A DNA stretch of 53,315 nucleotides from a virus. Of the stretch, positions 3,647 to 27,249 are shown piece by piece (the stretch's first letter is position 1; the number at the start of each line of letters is the position of its first letter). Below the pieces are notes generated by a model. It searched no databases and was not told where the DNA came from. It saw only the letters and a list, made by a program, of their open reading frames with translations. The translations under genes were made by a program, and so were the position numbers. The stretch covers positions 1-53,315 of the IMG/VR virus record IMGVR_UViG_3300030519_000023; one strand, 5' to 3'.

Positions 3647-3979
3647 CTAGGTGCGCGGGGTGATGGAGAGGTCGATCCCAGACCGGCCCTCGTTGGGCGG
3701 GGCCTGGAGCAGCGGGAAGAACCACGCAAGGCGGCCGTGAGGCATGGCCTGGGGTGTGTAGGGGAACTCCGTCTGGTGGTTGAGCCACTTGACGCGCTTC
3801 CACATGGCCAGGGCCAGGACTTCAGGCGCCACAGCCTCATCCGTCCAGGGGATCGCCACCACATCCATGTCGTTGGCGAGGGAGCCGTGGATCGCCAGGG
3901 CATATCCGTTCTCTCGGGCCACCTCACACAGGCCAGCGTAAAGACCGGCGTAGGCGGGGGCGATGTTTGCGGTTTTCAT
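3647..3979 (-). CDS. nucleotidyltransferase-like small protein
   Basis: The product has 110 residues. The segment AIHGSLANDMDVVAIPW matches a minimal nucleotidyltransferase motif (G-S-x-x-x-D-x-D), followed by a conserved PHGRLAW block and an IDLS ending known from many small phage proteins. The family occurs widely in phage early regions but its reaction is not established. The start is the second of two ATGs, seven bases after AGGAG. It lies immediately upstream of the PAPS-reductase-like gene and is likely cotranscribed with it. Confidence 0.75.
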   Translation of the reverse strand: MKTANIAPAYAGLYAGLCEVARENGYALAIHGSLANDMDVVAIPWTDEAVAPEVLALAMWKRVKWLNHQTEFPYTPQAMPHGRLAWFFPLLQAPPNEGRSGIDLSITPRT

Positions 3980-5618: not shown

Positions 5619-6680
5619 CTACATGCCCCTGGAGACCAGGGAAGTCCATTCGGAGCCCTGGAGTGTCATCACCGAGCCGCCCATGTCCTGAAGCTCAATG
5701 GCGCGGTCGTAGTTCTGATTGCCGTTGGCGACCTGGGTGAGGCTATTCGCCAGTCCCCATCTCGTGTGGTCGCGCTCCGCCAGAAAGCTGTAGAGGACCG
5801 ACTTCTTCTCGGCGTCCCGGAGCTGGAATCGGGTAGCCACTTCTTCGACCACCAGTCCAGGATCGCCAGGAACCTTGTCGTTGGCCTTCTCCCGAATCCC
5901 GTCCAGGATCTTCTTGAACCCGTCCTCGCTGGTCAGGGTATTGAGGTGGTCCCGCATTTCGAGCCAGAAGGCTTGATCCATGGCCTTCTTGGTCTCGTCC
6001 TTGAGAACCGTGAAGTCGTCATTGTCGGCCAGGAGTCGGCCGCCCAGATGAGCCCGGGACTTGCCATACTCGAATCCGGTCATGCCGTTGGTGCAGCGAA
6101 GCCGCTTGAGCCAGGGCAGGATTTCGATCTTACCCATGCCGATCTCGGAATTCTTGATCAGGAAGCCACCCTGCACTTCATCGCCGACGCGGATCTCGCC
6201 GGTCAGGGCCGGGGTGACCACCTGGACATAGAGGCGGGATTCGGTCACGGTGGCCGATTCGACCTGGAATTCAGGGCTCCCCAGGATGACCGGGAGCAGG
6301 TATTCAGCCACCTCCTCGTTCTCGATCATCTTGTAGCCGTTACTCAGGACGGCGCGGGCGTTGTCCCCGAGGGTGCGAATCAGGCGGCGTTCCCCCTTGT
6401 GGTTGTCTAGGAGGCGGTTGACGTTGAGATGGATGAGGTCCGGGGCGTTCTCCCGGAGTTTGGTCATGAACCCCCTGGGAATGCCGAGATAGTCAGAAAG
6501 CTGGTTCCGGGCGTGATCGCTGGTCCTGGTGGCGACCGGGCCGGTGGAGTTCATCCAGGTGAGGTTCTGGTCCTCATCCATGCGGAGGTCGGTCGCCGGG
6601 ATCACGAAGTCCCGCTTGTTCTTGGCATTGTCCAGGATGGTCTGAACCAGGACGGGAATGGAGTCGCCTTTGATGGTCAT
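5619..6680 (-). CDS. DUF932-like phage/plasmid protein
   Basis: This 353-residue protein is of the type annotated DUF932, found in phages and plasmids. Typical segments are FVIPATDLRMDEDQ early, NQLSDYLGIP with PRGFMTKL, RTLGDNARAVLSNGYKMIEN, and a C-terminal YSFLAERDHTRWGLANSLT block. Family members often accompany replication or recombination genes, but no enzymatic activity is established. The ATG has AAAGG upstream. It follows the XRE regulator gene in the same direction and is probably made early. Confidence 0.75.
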   Translation of the reverse strand: MTIKGDSIPVLVQTILDNAKNKRDFVIPATDLRMDEDQNLTWMNSTGPVATRTSDHARNQLSDYLGIPRGFMTKLRENAPDLIHLNVNRLLDNHKGERRLIRTLGDNARAVLSNGYKMIENEEVAEYLLPVILGSPEFQVESATVTESRLYVQVVTPALTGEIRVGDEVQGGFLIKNSEIGMGKIEILPWLKRLRCTNGMTGFEYGKSRAHLGGRLLADNDDFTVLKDETKKAMDQAFWLEMRDHLNTLTSEDGFKKILDGIREKANDKVPGDPGLVVEEVATRFQLRDAEKKSVLYSFLAERDHTRWGLANSLTQVANGNQNYDRAIELQDMGGSVMTLQGSEWTSLVSRGM

Positions 6681-8008: not shown

Positions 8009-11000
8009 CTATGCCGCTGCCGGATTCGCTTGCCCTGCCCTGGCCCGAACTGCCTTCAGGTCCCCGGCCAGCCCGGAGTCATCCTGGAAGCCATTGGGAT
8101 CCTGGAAAATCTCGCCCAGGACGCCCTTGCGCTTGATGCGCTCCATGTTGTTCTTCTCCCATGGGTGATCAGCCTGGAGAGTGATGCTCTCGACGTTGTC
8201 CTTCTGCCCCAGGCGCCAGATGCGGGCCGTCCGCTGGTTGTGGACCATGGCCGTCGACGGGATGTCGTGGTGGATGATGCACTTCCCATGCTGGAGATTC
8301 AGCCCGGTGGCGCCGGCATCGCTCATGACGATCACGTCGGCCTGTCCGCTGTCGAACCGGGCCGCCTTCGCCGCCTTGTCCTTGGAACTGTCCTTGCCGG
8401 TGAGACTGGTGGCTTTGATCCCAGCTTTCTCCATGGCCGCCTGAATCGACGCGACGGCCTCCAGGTTGTGGCTAAAAATGACGACCGGCTTTCCCTCGGC
8501 GATGCGCTCCTTGGCGATGCGAACATGCTCCGCCATCTTGCCGCCCTCGGGATCCAAGTTGATGATCCGGTTCATAGCCGATTCACGCATGGTCCCGACG
8601 GCTTTTCGCACCTTCTCGGCGATGGCCTGGTGGTCGGCCTCGGGCTTCCCGTCGAAGGACTTGGGTGCCAGCATCTTGGCCCATTTCACGGTGTCGGGGG
8701 CCCCGGTGCGGAGTTTCCCGCTGGCCAGCTCCACCTGGTCCACGGCCTGGTGCTGCTTGTCGGTAAGGGCGACCGACGGATTGGACTTGTAGCATTCCTT
8801 CCCTGGGTCGACGCGGCCGTTGAACCAGTACCGGGCCAGTTCCTGAGCCATGGACTTCTTTGCCAGGGGCGCGTCGTTCTTGTATCGCCGCATGAATTCG
8901 TCCTTCGACTCGGGCGGATACTTGTGAGGGTCGATCTTGTTCAGGTTTGACCAGACCTCCGACACGTCGTTTTTGAGGGGGTCGCCCGTGGCCATTACGA
9001 CATGCTCAGAGTTGTAGGAGTGGGCATCCAGCACCTTGCTCCAGGTGGAATCCTCCTTTCCATCCCGGTCCAGGGCGCCGTGGGCCTCGTCCACCATCAT
9101 GGCGTTGAAGTCGATCCCAGCCTTGATGAACGCTTCCTTGACGGATGCAGCGGCGTCCTTGGGGGATGCCGAATGCAGAAATTCCCTGGCACCCTCGGGC
9201 CCGCTGCCCAGGTGGTCGCCCAGGATCTTTAGGGTATCGTCCCGAAGGGTCTGGTGGGTCACGACGACCGCCTGCTGGTCGGGGTCGCGGTAGGCGGCCA
9301 GCCTCTCGTCGTAGCTCTCGCCCGGGGCGGCATGGACATGAAAGCCGCTGGATGGGTCGATGAACCGGATGGCTTCGGCGCCGAACTGGGCCTGGACGAC
9401 CGACGGGACGGCGATGATGCCCTTCTTGAGCTTCCCCTGCTGGTGAAGGGTCGTGAGGCTGCCCAGCATGATCGGGGTCTTGCCGCTGCCGGCGCCATAG
9501 AAAAGCCCCATCCGTTTGAGCTGGGTGATCGCCTTGACGGCCCTCTGCTGCTGGACGTATTTCCCGCTCATGTGGAGCCCGTCCTGGACGTTCACTGACC
9601 CCTTTCGCCCAGCAAAGGGCGCCGACGCGGCCGGCATGAGCCCCCGGATTTGGTTCTCCAGGGCAGTCCCAAGGTGGTAGCGTTCCCCGGGCGCCAGCTC
9701 GGGCTTCTCCCATGCGGCAGCCGGCGCCTCCTCTCTCCCGGGCTCCGGCTCCTCGGTTTCGTTCAAGTTGAATAGGGCCCCGTCCTGGACCTTTGCTAGG
9801 GCCTGGGCTGCCTTCGCCTCCTTGAGCTTGTCTCCGACCTTCCCCGCCCCGAACTGGCCGCCGCCCTTCTTCTGGAGCTTCGCCTGTTGGGACTTGCGAT
9901 CTGCGGCCAGGGCCTCGGCCTCCTTGTCTCCCAAGGTCATCTGGAGGTGCGCCTGGGCCCCGGAAATGTCGGCCGTCGCCATCTGGAGCTTCTGGCCGGT
10001 CAGGTGGTGGTAGTGGTCGTGGAAGGCTTCATTGAGCTGCCCCCGCATCACGTCCTGGATGGCGCCCTGGGCGAACTTGGTCCCACCCATCCGCTGGATG
10101 TAGCTGTCCCAAAGGGTCGGCTTGGTGGCGTCCTCGTGATATTCGGATTCGAGCTGCTGCCGCTTGTTGTTCCACTCCACCCATTTGTCCGACGCGGCTC
10201 CCTCAGCGTCGGCCGCGTCGTCGTCGCTCATGCCGGCGAATAGATTCATGGACTGGACTTCGGCGTTGGTCTTCTCGGGCTCGGGGCCCAGGTTGCCGAT
10301 GGCCTGGTCGAATTTCCACTTCTTGGCGTCGTCGCTGTTCGCCTTGCCGCCGAAGTGTTCCTTGTAGAAGAAGTCCCGGATGGCCGACGCGTGTTCGTGG
10401 GTCAGTTCGCCCTGGGGGATATAGGCGGCGGCCAGCCGGGGATCCTTGGCCAGTGCCCGGTGAAGTGCCTCATGGAAGTTTCCATCGTCCTGCACCCGCT
10501 GGCCCTGGAGGGTCGTTCCTGCCTCATTGGGGTTCGCGGCCATGTAGCCCTGCATCATGGGATCCAAGTCGGCTGCGATCTCGTGGGGGGCCCGGACGCG
10601 GGTCTTGAGCATGGGCTTCCCGTTGATCTCTATGGGCTTCCCGGTCTCCTTGTCCTTTTCCTGAATGGGCTGGCTCTTGGCGTCCTTTTCCACGACCCGC
10701 AGGGGGACCATCTCGTTCATGGCTGCGTCCCAATGAGCCTGAGCTTCCGGGGAGAGGTCCAGCTTGGCCCCGCCATAGACGCTGGCAACGATGTCCTCGG
10801 GTCGTTCCCCGTCGGCCAGCCGTGAGCCCATCCATGCCTGGAGCTTCCCCTTCACCGCCTCAGCGTCGTCTCCGTCCTGGATATCGTGGTGCCGCTGGAA
10901 TTCGGCGGGCTCCATTTCGGGGTTGGAATACCGGTCGGCCAGCCGATTGGCGAACCCAGCCGGGATCCAGTTGTCCTCATCCTGCTGGCCACCCTTGAGA

Positions 11001-13483
11001 GACAAGGCCACCTCCCTCTCGCCCAGGGCCGCGCAATCCACCGGCTTGACCATGGCGTCCATAGCTGCGCCCTGGGCGGTGATGACGGCCTCCCCGTCCT
11101 CGTGGCTGATCTGGTAGCTTCCCTCGGGCATCCCAAGGGCGGCTGCCGTCATGACTGCCTTCTCAGGGGTCATCTTGCCCAGAGGGATCTGGTACTCGTT
11201 CAGAGGGGTGGAGTGGAGGGCGGCGATCAGGGCAGCTCTCGCTTCCAGTCGCCCCAGGGCCCCGCCCAGGACCCGACGCGCCTCTTTCAGGGCCTCCACC
11301 TTATTCTTCTGGATCTCTACAGCGGCCGGGATGTCGTGAGCTACTTCCAGGAGTTCCTGGTCACATTGGGCAGCCTTGGCCCGGAGAGCCTGGGCGTCCT
11401 CGGTCACCTGGGGAAGCAAGGTCTCCTGCTCTTGGAGGTGGTGGTGCTCCAGAGCCTCCAGGACGGCTTGCTGGTCCTCGGGGCTGAAGTTCTGCCGAAG
11501 GGCACGGGCGACGACGTGGGCAGCCCCCTCGGGCCCCAGGCACTCAACAACGTCCCGGTCGATCATTCCCTGGCCCAGGGCCGCCAGGCCGACATCGTGC
11601 AGAAGGTCAAAGGCGCCGGCTCCCCGGCTCTGGTGCATTCCCTCCATTTCGCCGGTCTTGAACGGGTCGATGTCGCTCCCCTCGGGGAATCTCTCGCCCA
11701 CCTCCTCCAGGAATCCCTGGACGTGCTGGGTCAGGAGCTGCTCGTGCAGGGACTGGACCAGGGCTTCGTGTTCCTCGGGGGTGCCGACGGCCATCTGGAA
11801 CCCCGGCTCGAAGGTGATCCCCTTCTTGGCTGCCATCTGCTGTTTGTAGGTCGCCCGGAGTGCCTGGCGGGCCCGCAGGAGGTGGGCCAGGGTCTCATTG
11901 GACTCCAGGGATTCCTTCACGGCGTCACGCATGGCGGCGGCCTTCTGTGCCTGGAGGTCTTTAGTCGCCTTGTGAATCTGGATGTTCGCGGCCTGTTCCT
12001 CCGGGCTCTTGGGGCCCGTAGCCTCCTTGGGCGCCTTGCCTTCGGCAGCTTGAATCTCGTTCACGGCAGCCATCAGCTTTTCGCTGGTCATGCCGGCCTT
12101 CTCTGCCCGCTCGGCCAGCTTCTGGTTGTAGCCGGGCCCGGACTTGCCCTGGGTTTCCGAGAGGATGGCGTCCAGGTCCATAGGGGAATCCCCGCCGACC
12201 AAGTTGATCCCGCTGGCTCCCCGGGCCTCGGCGTCCAAGAGAACCTTCTTCTCTGCCTCGGCGACGATCTTCTTGGCCTCGGCCAGCCGGGCCCGGTGCG
12301 CCTCCTTGGCAACCTTGGGGTCGTCCTCGCCCTTGAACAGATCCTCATGGTCGCCGCCCTGGCCACCTGTGGCGGTTCCCAGGACGTCGTTGATGAACTT
12401 GTCCTCGGCCTGCTTGCGCTCCGCCCGAGCCCCGTCAGAGACCTCCCGCTCCTTGGCGAGGTCATCGGGTGACAGGCTGGCCTTCCGCTTCGCCTCGGCC
12501 TCGCGGCGGCCCTTGGCGTTGGCCCTGGACTCCTCCTTGTATTGTGCCGGGTTCTTCAGGCCATGCAGTCGGAGCCCATTCAGTTTTCCCTGGGCGCCAC
12601 CGATGACGCGGGCAGCGCCGTTGCTACCCTGGATCGGCTGGATGAGGAGAGGGTGGCCCTTGGAACCGGGCCCGTCGGGGTGCGCGGTAATCCAGTGGGC
12701 CCCGGCGGGGATGGGGTCTCCGCCCTTGACGATGGTGCGCCAGCCGTCACGCCGTCGCTGGTCCTCGGCGCAATGACAGCAGTTGAGCCCGTCGCCTTGG
12801 TAGTCCGGTGGCTTCGGGCCACCGCACCGGGCCTTGCAACCATCCGGCCTCGGGAAAATCCAGCCGTGCCCAGAATTAGGCATGTCGGGGTCCCAAAGCT
12901 GTAAGCCCTCTGCTTCGCTCTTGGCGATGGTCCGGGTGGCGTTCTCATCTGCCAGCCAGTCCTTGAAGTCGTCGATGGTGTGGGCGGCGATGGAGTGGAA
13001 GCCGTCCCAGCCCTTGCTGTAGTTGGCGAAGTAGGCAGCCTTGGCCTCCGCCTCGGTGTCCCATCCGATCATGACCTTGTGTTCATCGAATTCGCCAGAG
13101 AGCGGATCCACCTGATTGACGATGAAGACCGACTGGCTCTCCGGGTTGGGCCCGACAAAGCAATCCACCCCGTCCCCGTCTGCCCCGAAGGACCGCTTGC
13201 AAAATCCATAATGGTTGGCCATCTTGACCGACCACTTCGTCCCGCAGGAGTCAACCCCGCTTCGGATACTCCCGACGGGATTCTCAATGGCGATGGGGAT
13301 CCCCTGGACGACGATGTGCCCGCGCCGGCCGCCCTCCCGTGGCTCGGCCTTCCCTGCCTGTCGATCCAGATCTGGGGTGGTCAAGGGCTTGATCTTCAGG
13401 GCGATAGTGGGGGTCCAGCCGACGGGAATCAGCCACCCGGTTTCCCCGGATTCGTTATCGGTAAAGGGGATTCCGGCGTTCAT
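8009..13483 (-). CDS. giant polyvalent protein: pyrophosphatase-like domain plus SNF2 helicase
   Basis: This 1824-residue protein has an N-terminal inorganic-pyrophosphatase-like domain (about residues 55-180: ENPVGS, HYGF, DGDGVDCFVG, EHKVMIG), a domain known from phage polyvalent proteins. A Cys-rich patch and a W-I-T-A-H-P-D-G-P segment follow near residues 205-300, then a long Glu/Ala/Gln-rich helical middle. The C-terminus is a SNF2-type ATPase: Walker A GAGSGKT near 1333, DEAH near 1464, ATGDPLKND, ATGLNLQ, and QRTARIWRLGQ near 1755. Such proteins are thought to travel into the cell with phage DNA and protect or remodel it. The start ATG follows GAGG and is preceded by a 40-residue frame. 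Delivery is inferred. Confidence 0.85.
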   Translation of the reverse strand: MNAGIPFTDNESGETGWLIPVGWTPTIALKIKPLTTPDLDRQAGKAEPREGGRRGHIVVQGIPIAIENPVGSIRSGVDSCGTKWSVKMANHYGFCKRSFGADGDGVDCFVGPNPESQSVFIVNQVDPLSGEFDEHKVMIGWDTEAEAKAAYFANYSKGWDGFHSIAAHTIDDFKDWLADENATRTIAKSEAEGLQLWDPDMPNSGHGWIFPRPDGCKARCGGPKPPDYQGDGLNCCHCAEDQRRRDGWRTIVKGGDPIPAGAHWITAHPDGPGSKGHPLLIQPIQGSNGAARVIGGAQGKLNGLRLHGLKNPAQYKEESRANAKGRREAEAKRKASLSPDDLAKEREVSDGARAERKQAEDKFINDVLGTATGGQGGDHEDLFKGEDDPKVAKEAHRARLAEAKKIVAEAEKKVLLDAEARGASGINLVGGDSPMDLDAILSETQGKSGPGYNQKLAERAEKAGMTSEKLMAAVNEIQAAEGKAPKEATGPKSPEEQAANIQIHKATKDLQAQKAAAMRDAVKESLESNETLAHLLRARQALRATYKQQMAAKKGITFEPGFQMAVGTPEEHEALVQSLHEQLLTQHVQGFLEEVGERFPEGSDIDPFKTGEMEGMHQSRGAGAFDLLHDVGLAALGQGMIDRDVVECLGPEGAAHVVARALRQNFSPEDQQAVLEALEHHHLQEQETLLPQVTEDAQALRAKAAQCDQELLEVAHDIPAAVEIQKNKVEALKEARRVLGGALGRLEARAALIAALHSTPLNEYQIPLGKMTPEKAVMTAAALGMPEGSYQISHEDGEAVITAQGAAMDAMVKPVDCAALGEREVALSLKGGQQDEDNWIPAGFANRLADRYSNPEMEPAEFQRHHDIQDGDDAEAVKGKLQAWMGSRLADGERPEDIVASVYGGAKLDLSPEAQAHWDAAMNEMVPLRVVEKDAKSQPIQEKDKETGKPIEINGKPMLKTRVRAPHEIAADLDPMMQGYMAANPNEAGTTLQGQRVQDDGNFHEALHRALAKDPRLAAAYIPQGELTHEHASAIRDFFYKEHFGGKANSDDAKKWKFDQAIGNLGPEPEKTNAEVQSMNLFAGMSDDDAADAEGAASDKWVEWNNKRQQLESEYHEDATKPTLWDSYIQRMGGTKFAQGAIQDVMRGQLNEAFHDHYHHLTGQKLQMATADISGAQAHLQMTLGDKEAEALAADRKSQQAKLQKKGGGQFGAGKVGDKLKEAKAAQALAKVQDGALFNLNETEEPEPGREEAPAAAWEKPELAPGERYHLGTALENQIRGLMPAASAPFAGRKGSVNVQDGLHMSGKYVQQQRAVKAITQLKRMGLFYGAGSGKTPIMLGSLTTLHQQGKLKKGIIAVPSVVQAQFGAEAIRFIDPSSGFHVHAAPGESYDERLAAYRDPDQQAVVVTHQTLRDDTLKILGDHLGSGPEGAREFLHSASPKDAAASVKEAFIKAGIDFNAMMVDEAHGALDRDGKEDSTWSKVLDAHSYNSEHVVMATGDPLKNDVSEVWSNLNKIDPHKYPPESKDEFMRRYKNDAPLAKKSMAQELARYWFNGRVDPGKECYKSNPSVALTDKQHQAVDQVELASGKLRTGAPDTVKWAKMLAPKSFDGKPEADHQAIAEKVRKAVGTMRESAMNRIINLDPEGGKMAEHVRIAKERIAEGKPVVIFSHNLEAVASIQAAMEKAGIKATSLTGKDSSKDKAAKAARFDSGQADVIVMSDAGATGLNLQHGKCIIHHDIPSTAMVHNQRTARIWRLGQKDNVESITLQADHPWEKNNMERIKRKGVLGEIFQDPNGFQDDSGLAGDLKAVRARAGQANPAAA

Positions 13484-13490
13484 GGGTGCC

Positions 13491-13613
13491 TCAAAATTCG
13501 ACTTGCAATCCTGCTTGGACGGGGGCATATTTCTGGAGTGCAACAGGGGGGCGGAATATAGCCGGACCAATCCCCAAGTAGGCCCGTCCGAGGCTACCCC
13601 TTTGGCGGGCCAT
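13491..13613 (-). CDS. 40-residue coupled small protein
   Basis: An ATG overlapping the stop of the 215-residue gene (TGATG), with GAGG seven bases upstream, opens a 40-residue frame (MARQRGSLGRAYLGIGPAIF...). It ends two bases before the binding-site core of the giant gene. It fills the gap exactly, so it is plausible, though the small size leaves doubt. It is basic and hydrophobic. Function is unknown. Confidence 0.45.
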   Translation of the reverse strand: MARQRGSLGRAYLGIGPAIFRPPVALQKYAPVQAGLQVEF

Positions 13614-15927: not shown

Positions 15928-17043
15928 TCAAAAATCCATGTCTTGCCAGAATCCAGTGGGTTCCTCGGGGGCGCCCTTGGGGGCCTTCGGCGGCGGGACG
16001 TATTTTGGAACCGGCCGAGGCCCAGCTCCCAGAGCCTCAGCCAGCCCGTGGTCGGTGGCCATGTTGAGGTAGTGGTAGAGGAGAGACCGGGGCACCAGGG
16101 AGACCGCCTGGCTCTCCCAACCGCAATCCGTTGGGGTTCCCCCGACGCGCCTGGCCGTGTAGTACCTGGCCGTCGTGGTGGTCCTCTGGACATCCTCCAA
16201 GAACCCGGTGATCTCCGCCTTCAGTCCGCACTCCTCGAATGCCTCCCGGATCGCGGTGGCCTGGAGGGCGTCGTCCCCGTCGACGTGGCCCTTGGGGAAC
16301 GAGCCCCGGTAGCCTCCGAACTGGTTGGTGGGATGGATAACCCAGACCCGGCCGTCGGGCTCCTCGATCACCAGCCCGGCGGCCGGCGCCTTCCCCTCGG
16401 GGAGGGGGGGCTCCTGAATGGTCGGGTCCTGGCCCTCAACCTCCATCCAGTCCTCGTCCGTCGTCGGGTGGTCGGCCCAGGGCGCCATGGCGACCCCGTT
16501 TAGGGACGCGGGGGCCTTCCCGCCCGGGATCCAGGTTGCGACGGCACTGGGGTCCTCCCAGGTGTCCGCCCCGGTGGCCTTGGACGGATCCTTGATATAG
16601 GCGTCATTCCCCTTCTCGTCCAGCTTGGGGTGCTTCTTGGCCCCAGGGTTGTGCTTGAGGAAATAGGCCAGTTGTTCCTCGGGGGTGTATTTCGGCTTCT
16701 CCGGGGCTCCTTCCGGCTTCGCCCAGGACCACTTCCCGGACGGGGCCTGGCCGGCGGAGTGCGAGGGGGCCTGGCCGGTCTTGCCGGGGATCTTGAACGG
16801 GGCCGACGTGACCGGCTTCGATGCCTGGGTGCCGAAGTGGTTGTTCTTCCACGGCTGGTAGCCGATCTTGTCGTCCGGGTTGACGTGCTTTGGCGGCGGG
16901 GCCGGCGCCATGTTGACCGGCTTCAGGTTCTTGGGGGCGGCTTTGGATGGCGGGGCCTGGGCGGCGGCCCGGGAGTCCTCATGCTCGGGGATCCAGACCC
17001 GCTTGCCGTTGAATTCGCGGAAGAAACCCTTGATCTCCCTCAT
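15928..17043 (-). CDS. Nudix hydrolase with N-terminal cargo tag
   Basis: This 371-residue protein starts MREIKGFFREFNGKRVWIPE, a version of the F/Y-R-x-x-N-G-K-x-V tag found on neighbouring proteins. A Pro/Lys-rich linker of about 200 residues follows, then a Nudix domain near residues 215-330. The Nudix box reads G-x5-D-x7-REAFEECGL, with Asp where the first Glu is usual. Nudix enzymes hydrolyse nucleoside diphosphates linked to another group, for example ADP-ribose, NADH or RNA caps; which one is unknown. Its operon partner is an ADP-ribosyltransferase-like protein, so ADP-ribose or NAD is a reasonable guess. The ATG overlaps the upstream stop (TAATG) after GGGGAGGGG. Confidence 0.82.
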   Translation of the reverse strand: MREIKGFFREFNGKRVWIPEHEDSRAAAQAPPSKAAPKNLKPVNMAPAPPPKHVNPDDKIGYQPWKNNHFGTQASKPVTSAPFKIPGKTGQAPSHSAGQAPSGKWSWAKPEGAPEKPKYTPEEQLAYFLKHNPGAKKHPKLDEKGNDAYIKDPSKATGADTWEDPSAVATWIPGGKAPASLNGVAMAPWADHPTTDEDWMEVEGQDPTIQEPPLPEGKAPAAGLVIEEPDGRVWVIHPTNQFGGYRGSFPKGHVDGDDALQATAIREAFEECGLKAEITGFLEDVQRTTTTARYYTARRVGGTPTDCGWESQAVSLVPRSLLYHYLNMATDHGLAEALGAGPRPVPKYVPPPKAPKGAPEEPTGFWQDMDF

Positions 17044-17504
17044 TACCCCTCCCCGGTCAGAAGGAATTTGATGGCACTCTTGACGGCCCGCTGGAGCATG
17101 AAGCCAACCCATTCCGGGTCCTCGTCTCCACCATGGAGATCATTCGCCGACTTCACGACCTGGGTAGCCAAGAACAGGAAGAATGCCTGGCCCGGATCCT
17201 GACTGGGTTCCTCGAATTTGACCGACCGCTGGGCCCTTACGTGAGCCCCCAGACGGTCGGGAGTATTCCATTCGGTGGCGTAGAACGTTGGGTCCTTCCC
17301 CATGAAGGCGTCACCCAAGACCGTAGCCTTCAAGCGAATGGCAGCCATGGCATCGTCCCTGGTTGCCACTCCTTTCCCGAAGGAGTCGTAATCCTTTAGG
17401 ACATCGGCCACGAATTTCTGAACGATGGCGCCCACGTCGCCCAGGTCATTGAGGGCAACCTTCCCTTTTGGCTGGTGGTCGAAGTTCAGCGAGTTTCCGA
17501 TCAT
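17043..17504 (-). CDS. cargo-block protein, 153 residues, unknown
   Basis: This mostly helical protein begins MIGNSLNFDHQPKGKVALNDLG, with AAAGGGG upstream and its ATG overlapping the stop of the 916-residue gene. The region YATEWNTPDRLGAHVRAQ and the C-terminal FMLQRAVKSAIKFLL helix are distinctive but not recognised. Tight coupling between the ADP-ribosyltransferase-like and Nudix genes suggests a shared job, such as chaperone, packaging partner or inhibitor of the large protein. This is inference from position. Confidence 0.7.
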   Translation of the reverse strand: MIGNSLNFDHQPKGKVALNDLGDVGAIVQKFVADVLKDYDSFGKGVATRDDAMAAIRLKATVLGDAFMGKDPTFYATEWNTPDRLGAHVRAQRSVKFEEPSQDPGQAFFLFLATQVVKSANDLHGGDEDPEWVGFMLQRAVKSAIKFLLTGEG

Positions 17505-20251
17505 ACCGTCACCCCTTTCTTAAACTGGTCAACGGAATCAACGAAGGTCGGGTCAGGAGGGAGCATGAGCAATTCGAGTTTCATCGTTTTCCCGTCAGAA
17601 GCCTTACCCTTGCTTAATATCATAAACCGCTGCCCGGGGAGGGTCGTGATCTCCTGTTCGCTGGACATGCTATGGGATCCGTAGGAATCCATGGCCTTGG
17701 CTCCTTCAGCATAGTGAATCTCCAGGAGGAGGTCGCTCCCGAAGTGCTTATGGCTGCCCCAGTCCTCGCCCTTGGAACAACACATAGAATCGGTATTCTG
17801 GAAAAGCAATCCCGGCTCCGCCTGTTGAAGCTGCTTGGCCATGGTAGAGGGAATGTCCATCCAGCGCCAGAGACGGGCCCCTTCGTGCTTCGGAATGGCG
17901 TATTCGTAGCTCTCTTTGATTGCCAATTTGATGTCAGTCCCGCCATAAGAAACGTCATTCCCTTTGAAGTGGTGATTAATCGAACCGGTGGATTGGACGT
18001 TGCTGATGTAGGACTTCAGGTTCTTCGGCATCTTCTCGTATTGGGAATAACCCAGTTTCGCCTCAGCCGGAGTAACGTTGCTTCCGGCGTTCTTGGGTCT
18101 GAAGTCTTCTGGGTTTGCCACGCTGCCAAGCAGCATGAAGTATCCGAGAACCTCGGAGCTATCAATGTTATCGGTGTTCTTACCGAACGGTTTGGATGGG
18201 AAGGCATCTGAAAGGCCAGAAACATCCTCTGCCTGAGCAAGGGAGTAGGTCTTCAGCTTCTCAGAACCAGGGTTTGCTACCACATCCATGTAGGCAACGA
18301 GACCGGACCAATACTGTTTGACATGAGTGCTGGGATGCTGTTCGATGGGGATCAGCTTGGATTCCCCAGTCCCCTTGTCGACTAGATGGACCTGTAAGTT
18401 CTTCAACCGAACCAGGTCCCCCTTCATGGCCGCCCGGTGGACCTCGGCGGCGGCCTCCTGATTCGCTTCGTTGACCTTTTGGGTTGCAGAAAGTCCCTTC
18501 CCTTGGCCGTTCCAGTCGAGGAAGTCGGGCGGCTTGGGAATCTGAGCTTTATCCACCGGGAGCCTCTTTGGGTCAGGCTTGGGGGGATGAGCGATAGCCT
18601 CGGCCTCCGGGAACTGCTTGGCGAGGTAGTTTTTCCGGGCGATCAGCTTGGCCGACAGGGCGGCCTTTTGGTTGTCGTCTCCGGGGCCAAAAAGCTGGAC
18701 TGCCTTGGCGATAACGTCGTCTGGCATTTCCAGTACCGGAACCATGCTCTGGTTCATCTCCTCCTGAGTCATGGAGCCGAAGACGGAGGCAGACTGGGGA
18801 TTCTTGACCGCATCCTTCAGTGTGTGGATCTCGGGGACAGTGTTCCCGAAAGCTGGCCCCTTCTGGCCGCCCTGTGCCCGGAAGTCCAGAGCCCCGCCGG
18901 GGTCGATCCGCACAGCCTTTCCGTCGGGACCGACCAGCAGGTTGTCATAACCCAGGCCGACCACATCCCAATTCGCCAGCCACGCGTCGGCGCCGAACCC
19001 TTCCTTGACCCCGGCTTTTGCCCCCAGAGCTTCCCCGTCGCCGACCTTTGCCAGGCCCTCTTGGAAAGCAGAGGCGATCCCAAGCTTTCCGTCCTTCTGG
19101 ACCAGCTTCACCTTGGGGGCACCGATGCCCATCAGGTCGTAGAACTTGGCGGCCAGCATTTCACTCTTGGCCTGATCCTCGCTCCCTGGGAACTTGATAT
19201 ACCACTTCTTGCCGAAGGCGTCCTCATACAGGCCACCCGGGTTCGATCCCTTCTGTGGGCCAATCTGCTTGAATGGGAACGCCTTGGGAAGCGGGGCTAC
19301 CTTGGGAACCACCGTGGCCGGTCCCTTCTTCTCGACCAGCTCCCACCGATGGTTAGCGTTCAGGACGTAGGTCTGCCCGTTCTCCAGCTTGGTATCGCCG
19401 ATCTTGGGCCCCGTCTGGTCGCCCATCCCCTTGAACTTGAAGGCATCCTTCCACGACTTCTTGCCCCACAAACCAGGGACCGCCGTGAAGGTCATATCCT
19501 TGCCGTCCGCCTTGAGCTTGATCCCGCCGTCGACGGCCGGGTTGTTGACGACAGAGTAGGTGTCGCCCCCGTACTCGAATTGCATTCCCTCTTTAACCTG
19601 GGAGAATGCGGGGTGCGACCCGATAGTCGGGGTCTTGTCCGCCTTGGGCTTGGTTGGAGCCTTCCCGACGGCCACCTGGGCTTCCAAGTGAGCCGCCAGG
19701 GCCAGGTATTCATCCTTGGGCACCAGGTAACTCTGCTGCTTCTTTTTGTATCCGGCTGGGTGCATTGCCGCAATGGCTTTGGCTACGGCCGCCTTCATCG
19801 GGGTGCCGTCGTCGTTCTTCTTGCTGACCATGAAGAACTTTCCGCTGGGCGTCGAGAGGTGGACGTAGAACCCGCCGAGGTTGGCAGAATGCCCCTTGCC
19901 GATGGCCTGGAGCTGATCCACAAGGCTGGGCTCGGCCGCCTGGGGCTCGGTCGTTGCTGGAACGGGATCCGGCTCCGGCTGCGCCTCGTCACCCCCAAAC
20001 ATCTTTTCAAAGTCCCGGTCCACGTCGAACGAAACGGCTCCATGCGGGGGGGCGGCTGCCTCTCGGGGGGGCTCGGTGCCCTTGGGTGCTATGGTGGTGG
20101 CACCGGGTTCCTTCGGCGACTCCTGGGCGTCGGGATACATCCTCGCAAAATCATCGTCCGTGGTTCCCTTGACCTCGTAATCCCGCCCCTTGACATGGAC
20201 GAGCTGGCCGTGGACGGTGCGGTAGAAGTCTTTCCCGTGATGGAGGGCCAT
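17501..20251 (-). CDS. cargo protein: kinase-like domain plus ADP-ribosyltransferase-like domain
   Basis: The protein has 916 residues. The tag GKDFYRTVHGQLVHV is at 6-20, then an acidic linker. A small module near 120-195 is followed by GDTKLENGQTYVLNANHRWE near 285-305. Residues about 335-470 look like an atypical kinase: YEDAFGKKWYIKF, an E in SEMLAAKFY, NWDVVGLGYDNLLV as catalytic loop and RIDPGG as metal motif. Residues about 730-895 resemble an R-S-E ADP-ribosyltransferase: R in LWRWMDIP near 797, DSMCCSKGED, and EQE in SSEQEITTLPGQRF near 868. Such enzymes move ADP-ribose from NAD to protein, often Arg. Family calls rest on motif reading only. It is coupled to the 153-residue gene. Confidence 0.75.
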   Translation of the reverse strand: MALHHGKDFYRTVHGQLVHVKGRDYEVKGTTDDDFARMYPDAQESPKEPGATTIAPKGTEPPREAAAPPHGAVSFDVDRDFEKMFGGDEAQPEPDPVPATTEPQAAEPSLVDQLQAIGKGHSANLGGFYVHLSTPSGKFFMVSKKNDDGTPMKAAVAKAIAAMHPAGYKKKQQSYLVPKDEYLALAAHLEAQVAVGKAPTKPKADKTPTIGSHPAFSQVKEGMQFEYGGDTYSVVNNPAVDGGIKLKADGKDMTFTAVPGLWGKKSWKDAFKFKGMGDQTGPKIGDTKLENGQTYVLNANHRWELVEKKGPATVVPKVAPLPKAFPFKQIGPQKGSNPGGLYEDAFGKKWYIKFPGSEDQAKSEMLAAKFYDLMGIGAPKVKLVQKDGKLGIASAFQEGLAKVGDGEALGAKAGVKEGFGADAWLANWDVVGLGYDNLLVGPDGKAVRIDPGGALDFRAQGGQKGPAFGNTVPEIHTLKDAVKNPQSASVFGSMTQEEMNQSMVPVLEMPDDVIAKAVQLFGPGDDNQKAALSAKLIARKNYLAKQFPEAEAIAHPPKPDPKRLPVDKAQIPKPPDFLDWNGQGKGLSATQKVNEANQEAAAEVHRAAMKGDLVRLKNLQVHLVDKGTGESKLIPIEQHPSTHVKQYWSGLVAYMDVVANPGSEKLKTYSLAQAEDVSGLSDAFPSKPFGKNTDNIDSSEVLGYFMLLGSVANPEDFRPKNAGSNVTPAEAKLGYSQYEKMPKNLKSYISNVQSTGSINHHFKGNDVSYGGTDIKLAIKESYEYAIPKHEGARLWRWMDIPSTMAKQLQQAEPGLLFQNTDSMCCSKGEDWGSHKHFGSDLLLEIHYAEGAKAMDSYGSHSMSSEQEITTLPGQRFMILSKGKASDGKTMKLELLMLPPDPTFVDSVDQFKKGVTV

Positions 20252-20254
20252 GGT

Positions 20255-22885
20255 CTACTCCATCTCTTTCAGTTTGGTCATGGCCTTTTTGGCGTAGCCG
20301 GCCCATTTCTGGCCGAAGTCGCCCCAGGACGGCCCTTCCTCGGATTTATTCGGGAGCCCCTGCTTTGCCTTGTGCCCGGCGACGAGCGCCAGGTGCTTGG
20401 CGTGTTGGACGTAGCTCTCCAGCTCTTTCTTGCTGGGGGTGTAGCCGGAGTCCTTGGTGATGGCGAGGTGGGTATCGCTCAATCCGTCCATGATGGGTTT
20501 GGTCGCGGCATCCCAGTCGTGTTCGTGCCACTTCTCCGAGGGAGGCTTCGGCATGAACGGATCGGGCTTGACTGCGACCTTCGGCGTCTGGCCAAGAGAA
20601 TCAGCCATCTTCCCGTGATATTCGGCCAGGGCGGCATGAGCCTTGGCGGCTGCGGTATGGCTGCTCTGGAGGTGCGCCGGCCCAGGCTTGATGGGGGTAT
20701 CGGTCAGGTTGAAGGAATTGCCAAGTTGGGCGTGATACACCCCAGCCTTCCCATGGGCTCCGGCCGCCTTCAGGTGTGATTCGGCATCTCCCATGTTCGC
20801 GGCATTGCCGGAGGCATACTGGGCAGCCTCGGAATAGGCGTGAGCATCACTGGCATGTCCGGTGGCCTCGGGGTGATGCGCCGTGATCTTTCCGGCGAGG
20901 TCCGAGATAGCATGGGCCAAGTCGCTGGCTCCGCCCGGGGTTGGATTATCTTTGAACCCGGCCCCGGCACCCTTCACGACGCCCCTGGCCTCCTGCACCT
21001 GGGGGTGGGCTTCTTCCCAGTCCAACACGTCGGTATCGGGCATGACCTGGGCGTTCTTGGTTCCCCACTCCTTGGCCGCCTTCTTGATGCTCTCGATGAC
21101 TGCGTTCCCAGAGACGCCCAGGTCTTTGGTGTGCATCTTGCCGTCGGCGAATTCATACCAGACCTTCCCGCCCGGATAGGAAAGGCCCGCCTGGAGGTGG
21201 TCCTTGGCGTTGAAGTAGATCCGATGCTTGGCTCCCTTGGTCCACTCCTTGCCGACCCCGGCCAGCTCGGCGACGGTGGGCATGGATCCCCCGCCCTGCT
21301 CCTCCGGGTGCTGCTCGATGGCCAGCTCCCAGTGGTGATTTTCGTTGAGGACGAACTGCTTCCCGTTCTCGGTCTTGGTATCGCCGACCTTCGGGCCGTC
21401 CTCGTCCGGGACCAGGGCGGCAGCATTGGCCGAATGCCAGCCCATTTGGTAGCCCTTCATGGCGTCGATGTTGCTCCCGACCGGGGCGCCAGGCTTGAGC
21501 TGGGAGTCCATGAAATCTTTGTTCTCGCTTGGGATCACAGAGAGCCCCTTGGCGTGAGCCTCCTGGCCCATCTCGTAGGCCGACTTGGGTTGGGCCGCAA
21601 GGTATGCGGCATCCCCGGCCGCATCCTCAACCTCGCCTTCGGCCTGTTCGATGGCGAATCCTACATGCTTTGCCTTGGCGGCAAGGTGCTGGGCGGCCTT
21701 CTCTTGGTGGTAGTCCTTCAGTTTCTGGCTGATCGGAAGGTCGGCGTCCAGGATGGCCTGGTGAGAATTGGCAGCCGCATCATGGGCAGCTACGGCCGCG
21801 CCATGCTCCGTGGAATTGTGCTTGGAACTCACGGCATGGAACGTGTCGGCTTCCTCGGATTGAGCCGAGGCCAGCCCCGCTCCCTTATGGTATTTGGCCA
21901 TCTGGTTGTGATAGGCGGCATTCGAGAAGTGTTCCTTCTGTGCGTCCCCTTCGCTACCAATCGCCACCTTGGCCTGAGCCACGGCGGCATCCTGATGGGC
22001 CTTTACGGCGGAATCGTGGGTCTGGACATCATCCGTCGGGGAATAGCTGTAGGCGTCGGCCTCCTCGCTGGCTTCCTTGGCTGCTAGGGCATCCTCGGAG
22101 ATGCCGGTCACCTTCACCGGCTCCGGCACGGGGGCCTCCTTGGGCACCTCTGCGCCATGGAGGACCGCCATGACCTTGGCCGCCACCTCGCCGCCGGCCG
22201 CGCCATGCCCGAAGAAGAAATGTGGAAAGGCCGAATCGTTCCCGTGGTGGACCGCTCCGCCCTGCTTGGGCTCCATGGTCTCGCCGGTCACCTTGTAGAT
22301 GGCCTCCTTGATGGCGTTGGCGTCGGCCTTGTTCGCCGCCCGGAGATACCAACCCTTGTTCTTGTTGACGCCCATGGCGGTGCGCTCCGCCAGGGACGCC
22401 ACCTTGGCCCCTTCGGGAGCATGGCCCTCGGTCCACTTCGTCTTGCCCTCGTGGACTGCGTAGTGGCCGACCTTCTTCCCCGCCTTGGCTGGGGGCTGGG
22501 CGGCATGAACCGCGTCATCGTAGGCTGCCACCGGGACCAGCTTGCCGTTGGACTCTCGGAAGGTGGCGTCATGGTGGGACTTGCCGATGGGCCTCTGTTC
22601 CAGGATCGTTCCGTTCGCCATGTGCTTCACTGGCCTGGTCGCCATGGTCGCGGCCAGGGGGCCCGACATGGCTCCCCCCATCGAACCGGCGCATTTGCAA
22701 ACCAGACTGGAGCCCTCGTCCGGGTCCATCCCGTCGTCCACGGCGTCATCGAACGCCTTCAGGAGGTCCCGGCCTTCGTCCACGTCCTCGGGCTTCCGGC
22801 AGAAGTTCTTGGGAAGGCATTTCGCCTTATAGTAGGCACCGGCTTTCATGGCCAGAGCATTGGCATGGTCCTTCTTGATGGCCAC
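20255..22885 (-). CDS. 876-residue His/Ala repeat cargo protein
   Basis: A GTG start with GGAGG four bases upstream. The N-terminus (residues 1-80) is helical with a Cys cluster (CLPKNFCRK, LVCKCAGS). A tag-like segment (HHDATFRESNGKLVPV) lies at 104-119, and a domain beginning ERTAMGVNKNKGWYLRA at 167 also occurs in the neighbouring 327-residue protein. Near 508 a GDTKTENGKQFVLNENHHWE module matches one in the 916-residue protein. Much of the rest is helical with many A-x-x-A-H-x-x-A-A repeats, suggesting a long rod or bundle. No enzyme motif is visible. A role as an internal virion or ejection protein is inferred. Confidence 0.75.
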   Translation of the reverse strand: MAIKKDHANALAMKAGAYYKAKCLPKNFCRKPEDVDEGRDLLKAFDDAVDDGMDPDEGSSLVCKCAGSMGGAMSGPLAATMATRPVKHMANGTILEQRPIGKSHHDATFRESNGKLVPVAAYDDAVHAAQPPAKAGKKVGHYAVHEGKTKWTEGHAPEGAKVASLAERTAMGVNKNKGWYLRAANKADANAIKEAIYKVTGETMEPKQGGAVHHGNDSAFPHFFFGHGAAGGEVAAKVMAVLHGAEVPKEAPVPEPVKVTGISEDALAAKEASEEADAYSYSPTDDVQTHDSAVKAHQDAAVAQAKVAIGSEGDAQKEHFSNAAYHNQMAKYHKGAGLASAQSEEADTFHAVSSKHNSTEHGAAVAAHDAAANSHQAILDADLPISQKLKDYHQEKAAQHLAAKAKHVGFAIEQAEGEVEDAAGDAAYLAAQPKSAYEMGQEAHAKGLSVIPSENKDFMDSQLKPGAPVGSNIDAMKGYQMGWHSANAAALVPDEDGPKVGDTKTENGKQFVLNENHHWELAIEQHPEEQGGGSMPTVAELAGVGKEWTKGAKHRIYFNAKDHLQAGLSYPGGKVWYEFADGKMHTKDLGVSGNAVIESIKKAAKEWGTKNAQVMPDTDVLDWEEAHPQVQEARGVVKGAGAGFKDNPTPGGASDLAHAISDLAGKITAHHPEATGHASDAHAYSEAAQYASGNAANMGDAESHLKAAGAHGKAGVYHAQLGNSFNLTDTPIKPGPAHLQSSHTAAAKAHAALAEYHGKMADSLGQTPKVAVKPDPFMPKPPSEKWHEHDWDAATKPIMDGLSDTHLAITKDSGYTPSKKELESYVQHAKHLALVAGHKAKQGLPNKSEEGPSWGDFGQKWAGYAKKAMTKLKEME

Positions 22886-22895
22886 GGGGCCTCCT

Positions 22896-23879
22896 CTACT
22901 TGTCCAGGTTCAACAGGGACTGCCGGCGAAGCTCCAGGGCGGCCAGGGCGATCTTGTCGCCGCCGACCCGGGACTTCTGCTTTTCCAACTGGCCCAGCCG
23001 GGCGTCGACGTAGGACTTCATCATCTGGCGGCTGTTGGCCTCGTCCTCCTGGTCCCCTTGGGCCTTGGCAACTCCCCGGTCTGCCTTGGAATATTTGGCC
23101 AGGGCTGCATTCATCTCGGACGCTGGGACCTTGGCATCACCAGCTTTACCCTTGTGGTAGCGGCTGGCCTCATGGTGGGCCAGCCATGCCTTCTGGTGCC
23201 CCTCGTTGCCCTCCGTGGGGGGATGGACCTTCCCGTCCATGTCCTCGTACCCATCGCTATCCTCGGTCGCCTGGTTATGGCTCATTTCGGCAGCCAGGTG
23301 AAGCGAATGGGCGATGTAATGGTCCTTCTGGCTCCCGGTACGGTCTGCCTCCTGCGATGCGCGGTGGGCCGTCTGTGAGTAGCCAAGCATTTCTTTTGCG
23401 TCACGCCCCTTGACGGCTTCGGCGGCAGCGATAGCTTTCCCGCTGGGCGACTCGTCGGTGACCTTCTCCGGCGCCTTCTCTTTGCCTTCAGCCTTGGTCT
23501 CCGGCTGGACTTCCTTGTCTACCGGCTTATCCAGCTCGGTCTTGGCCGGGGCGGATTCGCTCCCTGCCTTCAGATGGGCATGGATCGCCGTGGCGTCCTG
23601 GAGGCTGGACACATGATGGTGGTCATAGGCGCCGACCCGGCCGAAGTGGCTGGCCCCGGATCTTCGCTTCTCTGTCTTGATGTCCAGGTGCTTGGCGGCG
23701 GCCTCGATCTGTTTTCCGTCTTCGGCGTCGGATGCCCGGAGGTAGTGGGTTCCTGACTTGTGCTTGCCGATGGCGGTTCGTTCGTGCAGCTCCGCCGGGC
23801 GCCCCTGCCCTTCGCCACCCTCCCCCACGTAGACAGTCTTGCCATTGACGACGCGATAGTAGCTCTTGTGGTGGCTCAT
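22896..23879 (-). CDS. 327-residue tagged His/Ala-rich cargo protein
   Basis: It starts MSHHKSYYRVVNGKTVYVGE, the clearest example of the shared tag, with AGGAG six bases upstream. Residues 33-110 (ERTAIGKHKSGTHYLRA, later AYDHHHVSS) form a domain also present in the 876-residue protein. A charged linker follows, then helices with repeated His and Ala (HRASQEAD, HSLHLAAEMSHNQA, HHEASRYHKG). It is the first gene of the minus-strand cargo transcript, diverging from the capsid operon. It is probably a smaller paralogue of the 876-residue protein. Function is unknown. Confidence 0.75.
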   Translation of the reverse strand: MSHHKSYYRVVNGKTVYVGEGGEGQGRPAELHERTAIGKHKSGTHYLRASDAEDGKQIEAAAKHLDIKTEKRRSGASHFGRVGAYDHHHVSSLQDATAIHAHLKAGSESAPAKTELDKPVDKEVQPETKAEGKEKAPEKVTDESPSGKAIAAAEAVKGRDAKEMLGYSQTAHRASQEADRTGSQKDHYIAHSLHLAAEMSHNQATEDSDGYEDMDGKVHPPTEGNEGHQKAWLAHHEASRYHKGKAGDAKVPASEMNAALAKYSKADRGVAKAQGDQEDEANSRQMMKSYVDARLGQLEKQKSRVGGDKIALAALELRRQSLLNLDK

Positions 23880-24005: not shown

Positions 24006-24866
24006 ATGGGCACCTCCGTTCTTACTCCCGGCCTGGAGACTCGCGGAAGCGGGGGGCACGGAGTCTGCCTACAGTTCGAGCGTTCCGTCTTCAAGGCCCA
24101 GGCCGAAGTTGAGGGTGGCCAGCGGGTCGTCTACCTCGAAGCCAGCACTGAAATCCGGGACATGCAGGGCGACCGGATCCTGCTCTCTGCCCTCGAAGCG
24201 TCCATTCCCTACTTCCTGAAATATGGCCGGCTCGACCTGGACCATGCCTCCGTTCTGGGGCAGATTCGGGGCGTCAAGGTCAACCCCTACGCTTTTGAAA
24301 TCGGGCGTCCTCTGGATGTGCGACTGCGTGATGGCTCCATCTGGGTCAAGGCCGCCATCTATACGGCCGGAGAGGGAAACCGGTTCACTGAAGCCGCCGA
24401 CCTTTTCTGGGACTCCCTTCAATCGAAGCCTCCCGTCATCTGGTATCCCAGCGTGGCCGGCGATGTCTATGCCGAAGAAACCACCTCCGAAGGTGGCCTC
24501 CCCACTCAGGAAGTGCGCGGCATCCGGTGGCACTCCATCGGCCTGTCCCGGACCCCGGTCAATACCGCTGTCGGTTCTGTCACCACCATGCCGGTTCGCG
24601 CCTTCGCCAAAGCATTCTCCGGCCTGGCCGACCTGAAGGACACCCTGGGCTCCCTGGCCCCCGCGCTGCCCTCTCGCGGCCTCGCCACGGCGGCCGGGAA
24701 GGTCCCTGGCGCCGATGACCCCATCTATATCCGCCTCGCCATGGACGCCCTCCTGGAGGCCACGGAGGCGGGTGGCCTGGATGGCTACCTAACCCTCGCC
24801 ACCGAGCGGGGAGTGCCCGCCGATGTGGCCATGGCCCTTCTCGTCGTCCTTCTCTCTCGTCGCTGA
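24006..24866 (+). CDS. capsid maturation protease-like protein
   Basis: This 286-residue protein opens the plus-strand head operon, directly before an acidic scaffold-like gene and the major capsid gene, the usual place for a prohead protease. The segment VVYLEASTEIRDMQGDRIL, then GRLDLDHASVLGQIRG with a candidate catalytic His, and a later W-Y-P-S-V resemble XkdF-like serine proteases that trim scaffold and capsid. The C-terminal third is a helical tail (about residue 200 on). The ATG has only a weak AGG upstream. The protease call rests on motif resemblance and gene order. Confidence 0.6.
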   Translation: MGTSVLTPGLETRGSGGHGVCLQFERSVFKAQAEVEGGQRVVYLEASTEIRDMQGDRILLSALEASIPYFLKYGRLDLDHASVLGQIRGVKVNPYAFEIGRPLDVRLRDGSIWVKAAIYTAGEGNRFTEAADLFWDSLQSKPPVIWYPSVAGDVYAEETTSEGGLPTQEVRGIRWHSIGLSRTPVNTAVGSVTTMPVRAFAKAFSGLADLKDTLGSLAPALPSRGLATAAGKVPGADDPIYIRLAMDALLEATEAGGLDGYLTLATERGVPADVAMALLVVLLSRR

Positions 24867-25800: not shown

Positions 25801-27249
25801 ATGGACGTTCTTTCGATCCTCGGCCAGTTGGCCGAAACTTCCGCTGATCCCCGGATCCGCACCCTGGTCAAGTCCCTGACCTCCACCCAGGCGGGCGTGA
25901 ACCTCGCGGCCCTGACCGGCGGCGGCGCAACGCGGGTGGAAGCCCTGGAGCCGGAACTGGCGACCGCCACCGTCCAGAATCCCCACTTCGTGCTGTTCAA
26001 CCTCCTGTTCCCCAACCGACACACGAGCTGGAGCCTGATCGACCAGCAGGTTGTCCAGGACGGCATCGGCGGATACCCCGGCAGCGCGGTCTCCAACGAA
26101 ACCGGCTCCAACCTCAACCAGCGCAACGGCGCCTACCACCGGGTCATCACCGAGCTGAAGGTGCTGGCTGAATTCGGCGGCGTCACCGTTCCCACCGCCA
26201 TGCAGGGCGCCCTTCAGCAGGCGGCCGGCGCGGCTGACTTCAACTCGGCCGAGCAGGAAATCTTCTCCGCCCTGTCCCGGGTCCTCCAGACCGCCGAGTG
26301 GGAGCTGATTTTCGGCGACCCCACCATGAGCCCCCTGGAATTCCAGGGCATCATCCCCGGTCTCCTGGCCAACGCCCCCCAGAACGTGCTGAACCTGGGC
26401 GGAATCGCCCTGAACACCGGCAGTCAGGTCGCCCCCCTCGCGGCCCGCATCTCCGGCTTCGGCTCCTGGGGCTCCCCCGACGCCCTGATCGTTTCCCCGG
26501 CTTGCAAGGCGGACTTCGACGGCCACCTGGAAGCGGGATACCGGGTCAACCTGGATGCCAACGTTCCCAGCACCACCCTGGGCGCGATGGTCAAGTCCAT
26601 CAAGTATAACGGCCTGGGCATCGGCAACGGCGTCCTGGATCTCTACCCCCATGTGTTCCTGGACGAGAACATGCGGCAGCCGGTGGAGAACTTCGCCGCG
26701 ACTGAAATCTCCGGCAACGCCCCGGCCTCCATGACCGGTGTCGCCTCCGGCGCGACCGGCTCCATCCCCGCCGGCACCTATGCCTACCGGGTGGAAGCCG
26801 CCGGTCCCGGCTTCGTGTCGTCCTCGGTCCTCGTGACTGGCTCGACCGTCGTCGTCGCCGCGACCAACCAGGTGGCCCTGACCATCACCCAGTCCTCGGG
26901 TGCGGCCGAGAGCTACTACAACGTCTACCGCTCCAGCAAGAACGGCAGCACCGCTTCCAATATGTGCCGGTTCATCGGGCGCGTGGCCAAGACCGGCGCA
27001 ACCACCGTGTTCACCGACACCAACGCCACCATTCCCGGCACTTCCCAGGCCATCATGCTGACCTCGGCCCCGCAGTATGACGCTCTGCGTCTGGTGCAGA
27101 TGGCGCCCCCCAGCAAGATCCCCCTCGCCATGACCACCCTCCAGTATCAGTTCGCGGTCATGTATCTGGCTTGCCTCCGGCTCTCCCTGCCGAAGAAGCA
27201 TGCCCTGATCACCAACATCCTGCCCTCCAACGCCACCTGGCTGCCCTGA
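25801..27249 (+). CDS. major capsid protein with Ig-like insertion
   Basis: This 482-residue protein has AGGAG before the ATG and is followed by a strong terminator, as expected for the most abundant product. The N-terminal part and the segments HTSWSLIDQQVVQDGIGG, QTAEWELIFGDP and LIVSPACKADFDGHLE fit an HK97-fold capsid of the type with long N-arm strands. Residues about 308-413 form a separate Gly/Thr/Val-rich beta domain (IPAGTYAYRVEAAGPGF, YYNVYRSSKNG) like an Ig or fibronectin-type fold, probably exposed on the capsid surface. The chain then returns to the capsid core (QYDALRLVQMAPPSKIPLAM). Assignment rests on order, size and pattern. Confidence 0.75.
   Translation: MDVLSILGQLAETSADPRIRTLVKSLTSTQAGVNLAALTGGGATRVEALEPELATATVQNPHFVLFNLLFPNRHTSWSLIDQQVVQDGIGGYPGSAVSNETGSNLNQRNGAYHRVITELKVLAEFGGVTVPTAMQGALQQAAGAADFNSAEQEIFSALSRVLQTAEWELIFGDPTMSPLEFQGIIPGLLANAPQNVLNLGGIALNTGSQVAPLAARISGFGSWGSPDALIVSPACKADFDGHLEAGYRVNLDANVPSTTLGAMVKSIKYNGLGIGNGVLDLYPHVFLDENMRQPVENFAATEISGNAPASMTGVASGATGSIPAGTYAYRVEAAGPGFVSSSVLVTGSTVVVAATNQVALTITQSSGAAESYYNVYRSSKNGSTASNMCRFIGRVAKTGATTVFTDTNATIPGTSQAIMLTSAPQYDALRLVQMAPPSKIPLAMTTLQYQFAVMYLACLRLSLPKKHALITNILPSNATWLP

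Follow-up and report, generated by a model that had tools for sequence, protein, structure and literature searches.

A short tag recurs on large effector proteins beside phage head genes: a putative modular capsid-targeting header

The internal head proteins of phage T4 share a short N-terminal capsid targeting sequence (CTS), which is enough to package foreign proteins (PMC9026906, PMC5694885), and in phage P1 the first 30 residues of DarB suffice to send a reporter to the capsid (PMC9024508). In other phages, how the many effectors that are predicted to be injected are chosen for the head is poorly understood. The parts of the polyvalent-protein literature considered here predict packaging and injection for proteins with ADP-ribosyltransferase (ART), Nudix, RelA/SpoT, inorganic pyrophosphatase (InPase) and methylase-helicase domains, and describe no short header (PMC5512222, PMC9503650). 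If such a header could be recognised, unknown cargo could be identified from its sequence, and loading of the capsid could be tested directly in a phage that is in culture.

We analysed the virus record IMGVR_UViG_3300030519_000023, a stretch of 53,315 bases referred to here as the window. A minus-strand run from 23,879 to 15,928 codes, in this order, for proteins of 327 (22896..23879), 876 (20255..22885), 916 (17501..20251), 153 (17043..17504) and 371 residues (15928..17043), of which all but the conserved 153-residue protein carry a similar tag. The reading frames of the four tagged genes look real, as their third-position G+C is high and purine-rich ribosome-binding sites precede each start. 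Divergent from these cargo genes, on the plus strand, lie a head maturation protease (24006..24866; PHROG phrog_23555/1028) and the major head protein (25801..27249; phrog_752, E = 6e-55). An 1853-residue polyvalent protein (8009..13570, minus strand, as for the tagged genes) joins an InPase to a SNF2-type helicase (Pfam PF18823, E = 6e-47, plus PF00271 and PF00176); no tag was detected in it. Effector domains of the polyvalent set (InPase-helicase, Nudix and, by homology, ART) thus adjoin the head protease and major head protein of the window, and similar ART, RelA/SpoT, InPase, methylase-helicase and Nudix-associated domains are placed near the head genes of phages and conjugative elements in the portions of the polyvalent-protein papers used here (PMC5512222, PMC9503650). 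The order of the 916-residue, 153-residue and Nudix genes is that of ART, small protein and Nudix in Aeromonas ST4, Pseudomonas Dolphis, Morganella Mecenats66 and Yersinia fHe-Yen8-01. Two further minus-strand genes of the window encode a PAPS-reductase-like protein (2764-3927; phrog_424) and a member of phrog_1362 that weakly matches DUF932 (5619-6680).

The 371-residue protein is a Nudix hydrolase (PF00293, E = 6e-13, 49.3 bits against a curated cut-off of 21.1) whose nearest solved relative is the Ap4A hydrolase 3i7u; its tag is followed by a linker (about residues 31-106) and the Nudix domain (about 121-340). The 916-residue protein has a kinase-like (HipA-like) region and a C-terminal region that we call ART-like rather than a confirmed ART, because the assignment comes from homology to proteins annotated as ARTs in Aeromonas ST4 and Pseudomonas Dolphis and from R / S / ExE residues conserved in the alignment; searches of Pfam, PHROG, NCBIfam and the PDB gave no sequence match for this protein, and the homologous region of another locus (L139) has a weak HipA_C match, below the Pfam cut-off. 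The 876-residue protein has a conserved N-terminal domain and His-rich repeats. No Pfam match above cut-off and no PHROG or NCBIfam match was found for the 327-residue protein, for which the sole match in a viral scan was a contig carrying an identical protein. The first-pass annotation had placed a different module behind each tag, and several kinds are indeed present, but they are not all unrelated: the 327- and 876-residue proteins have about 80 residues in common (E = 1e-7), and the 916- and 876-residue proteins both contain a second motif, GPKxGDTKxENGxxxVLNxNHxWEL (E = 2e-10). This second motif corresponds to GPxEGDTKQGADGxLVFKNGRWHK in ART homologues (L004, L005, L006, L161, L164 and L165). 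His-/Ala-rich repeats of the type HxxAAxxHxxMAxYH occur in both the 876- and the 327-residue protein.

The segment that the same annotation had reported in four neighbouring proteins was found in place in all four, and the strict pattern [FYW]R..[NH]G[KQ].V.[VI] is matched by these proteins only among the six-frame stop-to-stop ORFs of the window. As the pattern had been derived from the same four proteins, an out-of-sample test was run as well, with a hidden Markov model (HMM) trained only on six tags from two other contigs (L008 and L009). The four proteins took ranks 1-4 among 502 window ORFs, a ranking that tests conservation along with chance because the two contigs contain orthologues; they scored 32.3 (Nudix), 26.7 (327 residues), 10.0 (916 residues) and 9.0 bits (876 residues), with the next window ORF at 5.2. 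Over 20 shuffles, the same HMM gave a best top score of 6.6 bits and a best fourth score of 1.4. A 322-residue ORF elsewhere in the window (40245-41210, minus strand) contains FRVQNGRQVQ at residue 65; its 5.2 bits with the NGK profile fall within the shuffled range, and the resemblance is probably due to chance.

In the Nudix protein the tag spans residues 2-27 (16963..17040, minus strand), reads REIKGFFREFNGKRVWIPEHEDSRAA and is the positional homologue of AHVKGYTRKDGTYVKPH in relatives. That of the 327-residue protein, SHHKSYYRVVNGKTVYV, matches the strict pattern and covers residues 2-18 (23826..23876, minus strand; NPHYRVINGKTVYV in the L008 orthologue), and that of the 916-residue protein, HHGKDFYRTVHGQLVHVKGRDY, covers residues 4-25 (20177..20242, minus strand; KHSKDYYRVVNGKLVHTSGH in the L008 orthologue). 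The 876-residue protein does carry an internal tag, KSHHDATFRESNGKLVPVAAYDD, which had been put at about residue 108; it spans residues 102-124 (22514..22582, minus strand) and stands behind another conserved domain. Three of the four tags therefore lie within residues 2-27, and the fourth, internal one has a conserved counterpart at the matching position of the L008 orthologue (LMKSYVHTHTRTLKNGKVIVIGQYNTKK). The motif is also longer than the 11 residues first proposed: its real length is about 25-30, with conserved flanks, (K/S)H before and (P/E)H(D/E)D(K/S)RAA after. Among relatives the consensus is LxK[AS]HVxGYTRKDGTYVxPHDDKRxAA, of which the window has a lengthened 'NGK' form.

The NGK form is found in the tagged proteins of the window, L008 and L009, and the KDG form in the other phages. 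A KDG-type profile alone, tried as a detector of the window tags, fails to recover them, and the intermediates in L008 and L009 are needed. These join the two forms in a series that runs from REVKGFFRNFNGKRVWVPEHDDKRAAAAP and IHVRGFFRFVNGKNVWVSPHQ (the L008 and L009 Nudix proteins) through GHVKGHVRNVNGKLVQVREHD (L008) and AHVKSHYRVQGGKVVYIHEYD (L009) to the AHVKGYTRKDGTYVKPHDDKR-like forms of most relatives. As we read the alignment, the window form is one residue longer ahead of the turn and two residues longer behind the second strand, which is what a lengthened hairpin would be expected to show. Two tags of the window, L008 and L009 set are irregular and have an extra residue.

To follow the tag across related phages, a KDG-type profile was built from Nudix N-termini, iterated once and searched in the 25,475 ORFs of the loci retrieved, where it gave 89 matches above 20 bits, with none in the reversed ORFs. 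The bearers are Nudix proteins, large kinase/ART proteins (with an N-terminal KKQVWIPGYTKRDGTPVAGH and similar tags), a SpoT-like HD hydrolase, an N6-methylase/SNF2 helicase and several unknown families. They include a fusion of PARP-like, Nudix and HipA-like regions, in which the PARP and HipA matches are below Pfam cut-offs. Six ORFs contain two tags each; in L139 the PARP-like region and the Nudix domain each have one in front. The complete genome of Bordetella phage PHB04 encodes three tagged proteins, among them a DarB-like N6-methylase/SNF2 helicase with an N-terminal tag (L163) and a SpoT-like HD hydrolase, which suggests injected control of (p)ppGpp. The gene of this hydrolase (L163:20170-20745, minus strand) lies between the portal and protease genes. 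In the complete genomes of Dolphis, ST4, fHe-Yen8-01 and PHB04, with about 497 annotated coding sequences, seven proteins score above 20 bits, in the cargo/head-gene region, and a tblastn search with the consensus tag matched 8 of 50,697 phage records, all from this phage group. In Dolphis, gp116 and gp119 are tagged, and the ART is gp117. Weak matches also turn up on plasmids, among them those of Xanthomonas, where the matching protein is small and hypothetical.

An AlphaFold2 model of the Nudix protein (26 sequences) predicts the tag to be a β-hairpin, with strands at residues 7-11 and 14-18, followed by a short helix at 24-27; the pLDDT is about 81 for the hairpin, about 80 over the first 20 residues and 64 over residues 21-30. 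It is mostly below 50 in the linker (residues 31-106), which is thus predicted to be disordered, and mostly above 90 in the Nudix domain. Among homologues, between 139 and 244 residues separate the tag from the Nudix signature, and conservation is high in the tag and drops in the linker, although part of this contrast reflects selection, as the rows were picked by the tag pattern. The variable spacing and the disordered linker led us to reject the idea that the tag is a piece of the Nudix fold. For a second tagged family (L120), a shallow model from 7 sequences has a mean pLDDT of 52.5, with the tag region below 50.

The tag is not the only header found on these enzymes. Among 87 Nudix homologues, 58 carry it, 26 carry a header with the pattern RWPxGxPxGGQF, none carries both and 3 carry neither, one of the three being cut at a contig end; these counts are approximate, since a Nudix query was used to assemble the set and the GGQF pattern is a permissive one. 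The GGQF header, which precedes Nudix, kinase and ART proteins of other phages, resembles the tag in its architectural place, in the modules that it heads and in its repetition at internal junctions, although the two are unrelated in sequence and never occur together on one Nudix homologue. The GGQF phages often have Nudix and kinase fused in a single polypeptide, with the header once before each. No description of it was found in the literature searched. That two unrelated short headers fill one architectural role is the most suggestive single result.

The first-pass annotation had likened the segment to a common address signal on the effectors, perhaps for packaging into the virion or for ejection with the DNA. 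The architecture of such a signal is well supported by at least five kinds of enzyme behind the tag, by its presence at fusion junctions, by the disordered tether and by the replacement of the header in other lineages. The core hairpin is not confined to cargo. Its peptide, GYTRKDGTYV, has matches at 73 loci in bacterial genomes, where the proteins are small, of exported type and in no case cargo, and 19 of the 22 viral loci that contain it lie outside this cargo family, most of these being of the exported-protein kind. A restriction of the core peptide to cargo is therefore rejected; the peptide alone is not cargo-specific. These occurrences, together with further NGK-pattern matches in viral contigs, which fall on unrelated proteins, are what would be expected if the tag were a generic small β-hairpin, spread by recombination as an N-terminal cap with no address function. 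We consider this improbable, because the full tag marks few proteins (the seven in four complete genomes), persists where the linker changes and never shares a Nudix homologue with the second header. The objection that the segment is a common hairpin is thus borne out for the core, but not for the full tag, which is confined to the cargo genes within this phage group. With the core peptide in such wide use, the distinctive features are the complete tag and its position on effector proteins.

On the small exported bacterial proteins (L168-L240) the recurrent motif is VxGYTRKDGTYVxPHxR, found behind a signal peptide or near the C-terminus; its core is identical to that of the tag, from which it differs in having neither the K[AS]H prefix nor the DDKRxAA tail, and its letters had no match in the literature searched. 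A core that follows signal peptides or ends exported proteins fits a role at the cell envelope, so that the tag may instead work at ejection or entry, in the portal/tail channel or at the envelope, while another signal directs packaging. The disordered linker would also be suited to threading. We nonetheless regard this chief rival as unlikely, given that the enzymes behind the tag are large and folded and are encoded near head genes, and packaging is the likelier step.

Within a genome, the tags of the Nudix and ART proteins are closer to each other than between genomes (p = 0.005, 14 pairs/genomes); for Nudix against other tags, within-genome similarity is not significant (p = 0.21, 9 pairs, two of which probably involve false tag calls). 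The Nudix/ART likeness hints at one docking site, or at gene-to-gene copying. Together with the split between NGK and KDG forms, it is the pattern that a shared docking site would produce. The tag might otherwise be a docking peptide for a common chaperone or partner, for example the 153-residue neighbour, with which it would build an effector complex rather than address the head; this family is present at 77 loci, and in the relatives examined, as in the window, its gene separates those of ART and Nudix. Bordetella phage PHB04 argues against it, for in its complete genome, with three tagged proteins, neither the 153-residue family nor Nudix nor ART was found. The 153-residue neighbour is thus unnecessary for retention of the tag, which weakens the candidate role of a docking peptide for this neighbour only, and we rate docking to a chaperone or partner as improbable.

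Virion association can be followed in Yersinia phage fHe-Yen8-01, in which the ART (gp129), a 159-residue protein (gp130) that corresponds to the 153-residue protein of the window and the tagged Nudix protein (gp131, with the tag from residue 2) are all annotated as particle-associated. Because this label covers 52 of the 136 coding sequences, primase and methyltransferases included, finding it on three of three has a p of about 0.05. In papers that use the term, it denotes detection in phage particles by LC-MS/MS (PMC6893735, PMC8309999), and we infer that the same holds for fHe-Yen8-01. The ART header is diverged in this phage and gp130 has none, so that packaging without this tag seems possible. 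The position of the genes near head genes, the class of injected effectors to which the proteins belong and the fHe-Yen8-01 annotation lend indirect support to packaging of the tagged proteins in the virion.

We favour, as somewhat probable, the reading of the tag as a putative modular capsid-targeting header, comparable with the capsid targeting sequences of T4 and P1. As a detachable module, it would direct different effectors into the phage particle for injection with the DNA: the hairpin, with its short charged tail and on its disordered linker, would dock at one common prohead site, whatever enzyme follows, with the scaffold, the portal or the inner capsid face as candidates. Binding to a common head component, and packaging as its consequence, are inferred from the architecture described above. 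Speaking against this reading are the breadth of the particle-associated label, the commonness of the core among exported proteins, the untagged InPase-helicase of the window and the lack of significant within-genome likeness between Nudix and other tags.

Like the tag, the CTS of T4 is a short N-terminal sequence on different proteins, and the T4 head carries an ART (Alt); the CTS, however, which gp21 cleaves, is about 10 residues long, whereas the tag has 25-30, a predicted hairpin and a long tether, and is sometimes internal, at module junctions. DarB of P1, the archetype of the methylase-helicase kind (PMC9024508 and the parts of PMC5512222 considered here), has its targeting sequence at the N-terminus, where the DarB-like protein of PHB04 also has its tag. 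The P1 Dar proteins have no common N-terminal consensus by BLAST (PMC9024508), in contrast to the clear consensus of the tag across many proteins. The letters of the tag had no match in the literature searched; the DGTYV/NGK tag appears to be undescribed, although such labels are already known in T4 and P1. It is a candidate means of loading chosen proteins into myovirus heads.

A broader and more tentative proposal, which we think possible but doubtful, is an interchangeable address code: unrelated headers (the DGTYV/NGK hairpin, RWPxGxPxGGQF and perhaps FAHQAGYxLxxGRW), each fitting the docking site of its own head, would be swapped onto one set of effectors and repeated before modules, so that effectors could join and split freely in evolution.

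The sequence FAHQAGYxLxxGRW, another hairpin-like header, begins some ART homologues, and RWPxGxPxGGQF is repeated in the fused effectors of L044, L048, L049, L059, L061, L064, L065, L075, L083 and others.
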